Assembly: GCF_009827435.1 (NCBI RefSeq)
Contig: NZ_WTYM01000032.1
Span: forward strand, 1 to 64,000
Direction of reading: 5' to 3'
Length of the DNA: 64,000 nucleotides
Origin: Croceibacterium salegens
GTDB taxonomy: Bacteria > Pseudomonadota > Alphaproteobacteria > Sphingomonadales > Sphingomonadaceae
The notes under the pieces were generated by a model, which saw only the letters and a program-made list of their open reading frames with translations, was not told the DNA's origin and made no database searches. Shown piece after piece: positions 30,134 through 47,936 of this stretch. Both the position numbers and the translations under genes were made by a program. Each line of letters begins with the position of its first letter. The stretch's first letter is position 1.

Positions 30134-30220
30134 CGTCATTGCGAGCATCGCGAAGCAATCCAGTGCGTTGCGCGATACCGCCCTGGATTGCCGCGTCGGC
30201 TTCGCCTCCTCGCAATGACG
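30134..30220. repeat. Paired-hairpin repeat with CGTCA ends, copy B
   Basis: The left end CGTCATTGCGAG...GCAATCCAG and the right end CTGGATTGC...CTCGCAATGACG are inverted copies; the left arm lacks about 8 bases of the right arm. The same sequence family recurs at 47798-47890. It lies between the MFS stop and the ThDP-enzyme start. After it comes AGAAAGG, the likely ribosome site of the next gene. Confidence 0.8.
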
Positions 30221-45433: not shown

Positions 45434-46471
45434 CTATTTGGCCTCAGGAGAATCACCGAACAGGCCGCCCTGGACACCCTTCGGAGGGGTCATTTTGAGG
45501 TGTTTCCAGCCCCCTTCGTTAAGACATCTTCCGCGCGCCGTGCGGGCCACCAGGCCGAGCTGGATGAGGTAGGGTTCGACCACTTCCTCGATCGTGTCGC
45601 GCGGCTCGGCGAGGCCCGCAGCGAGCGTCTCGACGCCCACCGGACCGCCGCCGTAGATCTCGGCGATCATGGTCAGATAACGCCGGTCCATCGCATCGAG
45701 CCCAAGCCCGTCGACCTCGAGCCGGGTCAGCGCGGCATCTGCAACATCGCGCGTCACGACGCCCGATTTCGCGACATCGGAGAAATCCCTGACCCGGCGC
45801 AGCAGCCGCCCGGCGACGCGCGGCGTCCCGCGCGCGCGCCGCGCGATCTCGCGCGCGCCCGCGGCATCTATCGCCAGGCCGAGCAGCCGGGCACCACGCC
45901 TGACGACCTCCTCCAGCTCCTCGACGGTGTAGAAATTGAGCCGCACCGGGATGCCGAAGCGGTCGCGCAGCGGGGTGGTCAGCAGCCCCTGCCGGGTGGT
46001 CGCGCCGATCAGCGTGAACGGCGGCAGGTCGATTCGCACCGAGCGCGCCGACGGCCCCTCGCCGATGATCAGGTCGAGCGCACGGTCCTCCATCGCCGGG
46101 TAAAGCACCTCCTCGACCACCGGATTGAGCCGGTGGATCTCGTCGATGAACAGGACGTCGTTGGGCTCAAGGTTGGTCAGCAGCGCGGCGAGGTCGCCGG
46201 TCTTGCCGATCACCGGCCCGCTGGTGGCGCGGAAGCCGACGCCCATTTCCTTGGCCACGATCTGCGCCAGCGTGGTCTTGCCGAGGCCCGGCGGGCCGAA
46301 GAACAGCACGTGGTCCATCGCCTCGCCCCGCCCGCGCGCCGCCTCGATGAACACCCGCAGGTTCTCGCGCGCCGCCTCCTGCCCGATGAACTCGCCGAGC
46401 GACTTCGGCCGCAGCGCGGCGTCGGCATCCTCCGGCTGGCGCTGGGGGGAGAGGGTGGGGTTATCGGTCAA
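45434..46471 (-). CDS. ruvB: Holliday junction branch migration helicase subunit RuvB
   Basis: This 345-residue AAA+ ATPase drives branch migration with RuvA. It shows [11 protein letters not shown], Walker [15 protein letters not shown] near residue 60, Walker [16 protein letters not shown] near 107, [19 protein letters not shown] with the arginine finger near 158, and the winged-helix C-terminus. The start is a TTG at 46471 with GGAG 8 bp upstream, giving [12 protein letters not shown]. The gene should follow ruvA directly, but a GIY-YIG cassette (46500-46902) separates them, so co-transcription must read through it. Confidence 0.96.
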
Positions 46472-46499: not shown

Positions 46500-46902
46500 C
46501 GTCACCCTGAACTTGTTTCAGGGTCCATCCCCCGGCATGCTCAGACTCATGCGTCAAGAGCGGCAACCATGCGTCTACTTGCTCACCAACGGGCTTTACG
46601 GTGCGATCTACATCGGCGTCACGTCGGACCTTCTCGGTCGGCTCGTGCAGCATCGCGAGGGGCTGATCTCGGGTTTCACCAGCCGCTTCAAGATTCATCG
46701 GCTCGTTCATTTCGAGATATTCGACACGATGGAATCCGCCATCGCGCGCGAGAAGCAGTTCAAGAACTGGCGGCGGCAGTGGAAGATCAACCCGATCAAT
46801 TCCGGGAACCCGCAGTGGGTTGATCTGGCGGTGGGGTTCGGACTGCCACCGCTGGCGCGGAGCGGACGGACGAATGGATCCTGAAACGAGTTCAGGATGA
46901 CG
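46500..46902. mobile_element. Compact hairpin-ended element carrying a GIY-YIG nuclease gene
   Basis: The ends are inverted repeats of 29 bp that match at 26 positions: left CGTCACCCTGAACTTG...GGGTCCAT and right ATGGATCCTGAAACG...GGATGACG. Each end is itself a hairpin (CCCTGAA...TTCAGGG on the left, TCCTGAA...TTCAGGA on the right). The interior is essentially one small GIY-YIG gene, whose stop codon lies in the right arm. It occupies the ruvA-ruvB gap, 20 bp from the ruvA stop and 28 bp from the ruvB start, opposite to operon direction. No clear target-site duplication is seen. Mobility is inferred. Confidence 0.65.
46549..46884 (+). CDS. Small GIY-YIG nuclease domain protein
   Basis: This 111-residue protein is a single GIY-YIG fold, as in the UvrC N-terminal domain and small UPF0213-type proteins. 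VYLLTNG and AIYIGVTSD give the paired motif strands. LLGRLVQHREG has the conserved Arg, and AIAREKQFKNWRRQWK the Glu of the metal site. All catalytic positions look intact. I start at MRQERQPC, the usual N-terminus; an ATG at 46537 would add four residues. The last residues and the stop are encoded by the right terminal hairpin of the enclosing element. It may nick hairpin DNA of such elements; this is a hypothesis. Confidence 0.85.
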   Translation: MRQERQPCVYLLTNGLYGAIYIGVTSDLLGRLVQHREGLISGFTSRFKIHRLVHFEIFDTMESAIAREKQFKNWRRQWKINPINSGNPQWVDLAVGFGLPPLARSGRTNGS

Positions 46903-46922: not shown

Positions 46923-47528
46923 TCACCCAGCCGCCCTCTTTAGCGCCACGCGGACCAGCTCGTTCAGCCCCGCGCCCTCGCCCAGTTCGCCTTGCGCGTG
47001 AGCGACGGCGCTCGCCGCCACTGCAGGCTTGAAGCCGAGGTTCTGGAGGGCCGACATCGCATCCGCCGCAACCGTGCCGCCCTTCGGCGTGACCACGCTG
47101 GCCCCTGCCAGCCCGCTGCCGGGCAGCGCGCCGGCCTTGTCCTTGAGTTCGTTGACGATGCGCCCGGCCAGTTTCGGCCCCACGCCCTGCGCCCTTGCCA
47201 CGGTCGCGGCGTCAGTCGCGGCGCAGGCGTCGCGCAGTTCGCCGGGCGAAAGCGCCGAGAGGATCGCCAAAGCAACCTTCGAGCCCACCCCCTGCACTTG
47301 CGTCAGCAGGCGAAACCAGTCGCGCTCCCCGGCCTCGGCGAAGCCGAGCAGGCGCATGTCGTTCTCGGAAACCTGCAGGTCGGTGAAGACCGTGCAGCCC
47401 TCGCCTACCTCGCCCAGTGCGGCGAGCGTCTTCGACGAGCAGTGGACGAGGTAACCGACGCCGGCGACGTCGATCACCGCCCAGTCGCTCCCCGTCTCGT
47501 CGAGCACCCCCCGGAGTTTCGCAATCAT
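46923..47528 (-). CDS. ruvA: Holliday junction branch migration complex subunit RuvA
   Basis: This 201-residue protein binds Holliday junctions and loads RuvB. It begins [11 protein letters not shown] with GVGYLVHCS in the OB-fold (domain I), has helix-hairpin-helix segments [13 protein letters not shown] and [19 protein letters not shown] (domain II), and a C-terminal three-helix domain with [13 protein letters not shown] that contacts RuvB. CAGGAAC precedes the ATG. The next operon gene, ruvB, is separated by the GIY-YIG cassette. ruvC, often upstream, is absent. Confidence 0.95.
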
Positions 47529-47936
47529 GCTTTGTTCCTGCCCGTTCGGCGCAGGTTTGGGAAGTGGCGGCGCGCCCGCTGTCCCCCAAAGTTCGGGCAA
47601 AGTTCAGTGCGAAACTTCGCTGAGATTTGCCGTCCAGCCGGTGCGCCAAGGTCACGCCGGGTTGACACATCTGACAGTGTCCTGGGGCAAAACTCCGCAC
47701 CGCCCTTGAAGCCATGTCGCGTGGGGTCGGATCGATGCGGCAGGCCGGTCATGCAGCGGTGCTGGCACAGGTTGGGGCCTGTAGGACAGCGAAACTTCGT
47801 CATTGCGAGGAGCGAAGTGACCATGCAATCCAGGGCGTTGTAGCGTGCCGCCCTGGATTGCCGCGGCGACTGCGTCGCCTCGCAATGACGAAGGGGAAGT
47901 GGACAGCGCGCTCGGTTTCGGCAAAAGCGTGCGCCC
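47529..47936. other. 408-bp divergent intergenic region between ruvA and aroC
   Basis: This region must hold the ruvA and aroC promoters. About a quarter is a paired-hairpin repeat (47798-47890). The remainder has no open frame with family similarity; in particular no ruvC fragment is recognisable. I could not pick promoter hexamers with confidence, and the sequence before the aroC ATG is a weak ribosome site. Confidence 0.5.
47798..47890. repeat. Paired-hairpin repeat with CGTCA ends, copy C
   Basis: The left end CGTCATTGCGAG...GCAATCCAG and the right end CTGGATTGC...CTCGCAATGACG are inverted copies. It belongs to the same sequence family as copy B at 30134-30220 and lies 0.9 kb from the GIY-YIG cassette, in the ruvA/aroC intergenic region. 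Confidence 0.8.

Follow-up and report, generated by a model that had tools for sequence, protein, structure and literature searches.

In the 64,000-nt stretch of Croceibacterium salegens DNA analysed here (contig NZ_WTYM01000032.1, positions 1 to 64,000; hereafter the window), a 403-bp element (46500-46902) lies between the ruvB and ruvA genes. It was found that the element consists of a GIY-YIG nuclease gene bracketed by two inverted 29-bp hairpins. The features of the locus are listed below, together with two gene-less elements found in the same window, whose repeats (REPs) are of the type found at the ends of another cassette of this genome (L002).

30137-30217, no strand assigned: second gene-less outward dimer, of the same ATTGCGAG...GCAATCCA REP type as the L002 ends
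45434-46471, minus strand: ruvB (PF05496, PF17864, PF05491), its start 28 bp from the left hairpin
46500-46528, plus strand: left CGTC-tagged REP hairpin; tag CGTC, stem ACCCTGAA/TTCAGGGT, loop CTTGT, tail CCA (from sequence, ssDNA fold and hairpin detector)
46537-46884, plus strand: GIY-YIG nuclease gene, 115 aa (PF01541, E 8.3e-15; motif residues; dN/dS about 0.28-0.56 among the orthologues at ruvAB)
46874-46902, minus strand: right CGTC-tagged REP hairpin, inverted; tag CGTC, stem ATCCTGAA/TTCAGGAT, loop CTCGT, tail CCA (from sequence and ssDNA fold)
46923-47525, minus strand: ruvA (PF01330, PF07499), its stop 20 bp from the right hairpin
47799-47891, no strand assigned: gene-less mini-element of two CGTC-outward REPs, of the ATTGCGAG...GCAATCCA type that forms the L002 cassette ends; ssDNA fold -34.6 kcal/mol

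The left arm reads CGTCACCCTGAACTTGTTTCAGGGTCCAT (46500-46528) and the right arm, on the minus strand, reads CGTCATCCTGAACTCGTTTCAGGATCCAT (46902-46874); they are identical at 26 of 29 positions. Folded as ssDNA, each arm forms an 8-bp stem with a 5-nt loop, at -7.1 kcal/mol (z -3.7) for the left arm and -6.1 kcal/mol (z -4.2) for the right. The pair 46500-46528/46874-46902 was absent from the output of the repeat search at default settings, probably because the three mismatches interrupt exact seeds. The frame of the nuclease ORF is already open from a TTG at 46513 within the left arm, and the ATG at 46537 is the likelier start. Its stop codon (TGA, 46882-46884) falls within the right hairpin arm. 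The gene is oriented against ruvA and ruvB, both of which are on the minus strand. A preliminary description of this DNA had already claimed an intact GIY-YIG gene between two 29-bp inverted hairpins with 26 matches, a stop codon inside the right arm, and a location between ruvA and ruvB antisense to the operon. All of this was borne out by the sequence, the fold, the coordinates and the Pfam domains.

The 115-aa protein belongs to the GIY-YIG superfamily, as judged from the PF01541 match (8.3e-15) and from Y14, Y25-x-G27, R35, E72 and N91, which are invariant in alignment A1. An NCBIfam search with the protein assigned no family. Its sole PDB sequence matches are 1zg2 (6e-9) and 1ywl (1.2e-5), UPF0213/YhbQ-YazA GIY-YIG proteins of the same fold family that were deposited as hypothetical proteins.

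What are the hairpins? CGTC-tagged REPs were defined by Di Nocera, De Gregorio and Rocco in 2013 by a CGTC tag, a stem of 8-9 bp, a loop of 4-5 nt and a CCA tail, and they were found mainly in alphaproteobacteria (PMC3733652). Both arms of the element start with CGTC and have an 8-bp stem, a 5-nt loop and a CCA tail; across the survey described below, the tag is CGTC in 251 of 293 hairpins. With their tag, an 8-bp stem opening with A, a 5-nt loop and a CCA tail, the arms fit the CGTC-2 REPs, which are described as having an 8-bp stem and a 5-nt loop (PMC3733652). The window-type (CTGAAC-type) REP is repeated modestly, with seven copies in the 3.64-Mb genome, two of which are the arms of the nuclease gene; the sister type of L002 has 51 copies in this genome, and the window type has 86 in another genome (G003). 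The preliminary statement that no element of this design had been described was too strong, since the ends belong to this published superfamily (PMC3733652). In the 2013 survey, the CGTC repeats showed no association with transposase genes; it was suggested that their mobilising elements had possibly disappeared, and their origin and spread were left open (PMC3733652). The same paper contains no mention of GIY-YIG, and a literature search gave no paper tying GIY-YIG genes to REPs or REPINs among the matches listed.

Recurrence and class matching of nuclease and hairpin

Is the pairing common? I surveyed 97 GIY-YIG loci, picked by protein similarity only and taken for the most part from a single genome for each genus of the family. 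The best inverted repeat across the gene scored at least 15 in 76 of the 97 loci and in none of 193 shifted controls, which never scored above 14; matched arms thus greatly exceed chance. Drawing on named genomes, viral contigs and plasmids then enlarged the survey to 216 non-redundant GIY-YIG loci. Outward CGTC hairpins lie on both sides at 119 of these 216 loci, compared with 1 of 828 shifted positions, and on at least one side at 171, compared with 31 of 828. When other ORFs served as the control, hairpins on both sides were found in 1 of 95. The pairing was also seen in Planctomycetes, Magnetococcales, Kaistia, Azospirillum and Neisseria gonorrhoeae. In the C. salegens genome itself there are three small GIY-YIG genes besides uvrC, and all three have inverted CGTC REPs, each pair being of another sequence type. 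It had been argued in the preliminary description that close homologues lacking such ends would speak against mobility. The outcome is mixed: most close homologues have the ends, but the strict hairpin detector found no hairpin at 45 of the 216 loci.

Several individual loci may be recorded here. The third small GIY-YIG gene of this genome (L004, G000:C22:63103-63291) has an internal TAG and CCCGTGCTCGACACGGG-type hairpins around it, and appears to be a decaying cassette. In Azospirillum lipoferum, a cassette lies between sufB and sufC (L297, 1366-1984). On a Planktothrix plasmid, the neighbours of a GIY-YIG gene are an MmeI-type restriction gene and the DISARM gene drmA, and no clear REPs accompany it (L298, 1169-2085). 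A more distant YhbQ-like GIY-YIG gene (L005, G003:C8:484384-484599) is framed by a different repeat, CGTTCGTCCTGAGCTTGTCGAAGGACG. No matched pair of arms lies across the gene in a set of Sphingomonas homologues with about 60% identity to the window protein (L196, L198, L200, L203, L204, L208 and L209); this set is possibly a domesticated branch. Separately, a 3.7-Mb Sinorhizobium meliloti record named pSymB carries gltA and lpxB and looks like a misnamed chromosome.

The hairpins fall into two classes by their loops, CTTG and GNAN, and the GNAN-loop class fits the published CGTC-1 REPs (PMC3733652). Both arms of a cassette are of the same class in 107 of 109 classed pairs (A/A 65, B/B 42, A/B 2), even though the two classes occur together in genomes. 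In a tree built from 202 nuclease sequences, the loop class changes 10 times compared with a shuffled mean of 51 and minimum of 40, and the stem class changes 29 times compared with 89 when shuffled; all of these counts are inflated by relatedness. At least three copies of the window-type REP were found in 15 of 22 genomes with this nuclease type and in 7 of 58 without it (p 2e-6, by a statistic that ignores kinship). Some genomes have the window-type REP without the window-type nuclease. Class-matched arms, a class that follows the nuclease tree, and more REPs alongside the nuclease are what a recognition relationship predicts. Since the pairing recurs across many bacteria and the enzyme family tracks the repeat sequence, the GIY-YIG nuclease is probably the enzyme that had been missing for this class of repeats, which was believed to lack one. 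The home of the system is alphaproteobacterial, as in the published superfamily (PMC3733652); what differs is that a nuclease clade is paired here with each hairpin class.

A 2025 paper in Nature Communications reportedly describes Ssn, a family of site-specific single-strand GIY-YIG nucleases that cut ssDNA at a Neisseria repeat and modulate transformation; cassette mobility was reportedly not its subject. An action of Ssn on such a repeat would be a further reason to regard the design as less novel than had been claimed. The N. gonorrhoeae homologue, which may be the ssn gene product, shares 54.5% identity with the window protein; CGTC repeats flank its gene on each side, at distances of 221 and 278 bp from the core. 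Like the window protein, the Ssn nucleases have a single small GIY-YIG domain. The repeats of the Neisseria homologue are of the dRS3 type, and Di Nocera equated the Neisseria CGTC-1 repeats with dRS3 (PMC3733652). The window protein is probably an Ssn-type enzyme with a cognate REP.

Copies, deletions and empty sites

The cassette with CTGAAC-type REPs lies between ruvA and ruvB at 25 of the 46 loci with this REP type, in genera that include Novosphingobium, Erythrobacter, Sphingobium, Sphingopyxis and others. Within the genus, the site carries the cassette in four of five genomes. It is missing in close relatives that retain ruvAB (G001, G012, G013 and G017), while Sphingobium, Sphingopyxis and some others carry it in the opposite orientation. 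The dN/dS among the orthologues at this site is about 0.28-0.56; values below 1 indicate selection on the protein. A frameshift interrupts one copy (L013). A recent insertion of the window copy was rejected, since the ruvA-ruvB site is occupied in many genera. The ruvA-ruvB copy is an old resident, inherited mostly vertically and maintained by selection on the protein. The comparison with empty sites that the preliminary description called for gave a divided answer: the cassette is not fixed in all relatives, but it is common to many genera.

Other members of the class bear marks of movement; the window copy bears none of a recent one. In one relative (G087), nine closely similar cassette copies with a unit of about 490 bp lie at unrelated loci (L133-L141). 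Five of them are full copies, about 95-97% identical, while two copies share one 47-bp internal deletion and two others share a 124-bp deletion. The shared deletions indicate that amplification continued after these copies had lost part of the gene. The amplified unit extends about 40 bp beyond the REPs to outer TGTCGGG..CCGACA palindromes; thus, another enzyme could have moved the unit, and there is no proof that it ends at the CGTC REPs. Compared with G001, in which the convergent genes on either side directly abut each other, the L002 cassette of C. salegens forms an insertion of 502 bp. Inspection of G087 and L002 by eye revealed no clear target-site duplication. Gene-less pairs are also present: among the 51 L002-type REPs of this genome there are 12 outward pairs arranged as in the cassette, two of them in the window.

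One site on Sphingobium plasmids carries the cassette in seven strains and lacks it in four. In two strains with the empty site, it was found that a single hairpin, CGTCACCCCGGGTCAAGCCCGGGGTGACG or a near variant, corresponds to the outer halves of both arms joined together; compared with the outer halves at the occupied site, it is exact in TomTYG64 and has two changes in TomTYG74. The single hairpin may be an excision footprint or a target. It could also be a deletion footprint generated by slippage between short repeats, which needs no nuclease. The copies at unrelated loci in G087 and the occupied and empty sites of L002 (against G001) and of Sphingobium characterise the class as a mobile element. 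The preliminary description had proposed a minimal mobile unit, analogous to REPs with their RAYT transposases and with a different enzyme. For the class, this proposal is well supported by the cognate ends, the amplification, the non-autonomous derivatives and the empty sites; as a recent insertion of the window copy, it was not supported.

Explanations of the cassette and their meaning

I favour the explanation, with a probability of roughly two in three, that the element is an autonomous CGTC-REP cassette, in which the GIY-YIG gene lies between two inverted copies of the hairpin that its nuclease would recognise. The nuclease would bind its cognate hairpin when this is exposed as ssDNA during replication, repair or uptake, and would cut at or close to the CGTC tag. 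Since the hydrolysis of DNA by GIY-YIG enzymes involves no covalent intermediate, a strand transfer of the RAYT-like HUH type is unlikely. Instead, the cassette and its REPs may spread via the repair or copying of the cut, and solo REPs and mini-dimers would be non-autonomous passengers. A wider proposal is that the CGTC REPs form a mobile REP/REPIN system in which GIY-YIG nucleases of the Ssn type are the driving enzymes, each clade mobilising its own hairpin class by a hydrolytic cut and repair and thus by another route than the REP systems with HUH transposases; I regard this as tentative, with a little less than an even chance of being right. The likeness to REP-RAYT-REP units and REPINs lies in an enzyme gene between inverted REPs, in gene-less dimers and in the match between enzyme clade and REP class (the RAYT side of this comparison is partly general knowledge). 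The difference is that a hydrolytic GIY-YIG enzyme and a CGTC tag are found here, and a Y1 HUH transposase and a GTAG tag there. Thus, the cassette would work alike without being a member of that group.

An Ssn-type nuclease might instead act as a gatekeeper, cutting incoming or exposed ssDNA at REP hairpins and tuning uptake or recombination; the REPs would then be marks, and the cassettes would spread by homologous recombination and horizontal transfer. The flanking of the N. gonorrhoeae homologue (54.5% identity) on both sides by CGTCATTCCCGCGCAGGCGGGAAT repeats speaks for this explanation, which is conceivable at rather below even odds and is partly compatible with the cassette. Taken alone, however, it leaves the amplified deleted copies of G087 and the gene-less outward dimers unexplained. 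It is unlikely that the cassette spreads in a homing-like manner, the nuclease cutting a solo double-tagged hairpin and repair copying the cassette in, so that a hairpin ends up on each side. GIY-YIG is a classic homing-nuclease fold, and the empty site of TomTYG64 and TomTYG74 is one double-tagged hairpin made of the outer halves. However, a deletion between the CCCCGGG halves yields the same product, hairpins with two tags are rare (for the CTTG-loop class, 80 genomes contain 11), and the empty site of L002 in G001 has no hairpin.

The concentration of the cassette between ruvA and ruvB (25 of 46 CTGAAC-type loci, in many genera and both orientations) and a dN/dS below 1 would also suit a domesticated nuclease that works with RuvAB on hairpins or junctions, the REPs being its substrate or regulatory elements. 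This seems quite improbable, because the gene is absent in the ruvAB-keeping relatives G001, G012, G013 and G017, other clades of the family lie elsewhere, and the orientation varies. REPs are typically close to gene ends (PMC3733652), so that a small intergenic gene could receive one on each side by coincidence if REPs gather there as terminators or stabilisers. Such a coincidence is disfavoured by the controls (1 of 95 other ORFs and 1 of 828 shifted positions). The class is moreover matched on both sides and follows the nuclease tree, and two of just seven such repeats in the genome frame the gene; I consider coincidence very improbable indeed.

The CGTC REPs span several phyla, and a clade-matched nuclease, along with the amplified copies and deletion derivatives of a single genome, makes the question of how these REPs arise and spread directly testable. 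If the cassette explanation is true, the REP/RAYT design would have been reached a second time, independently and with a hydrolytic enzyme. Many enzyme-hairpin pairs would then be available for single-strand-specific cutting.
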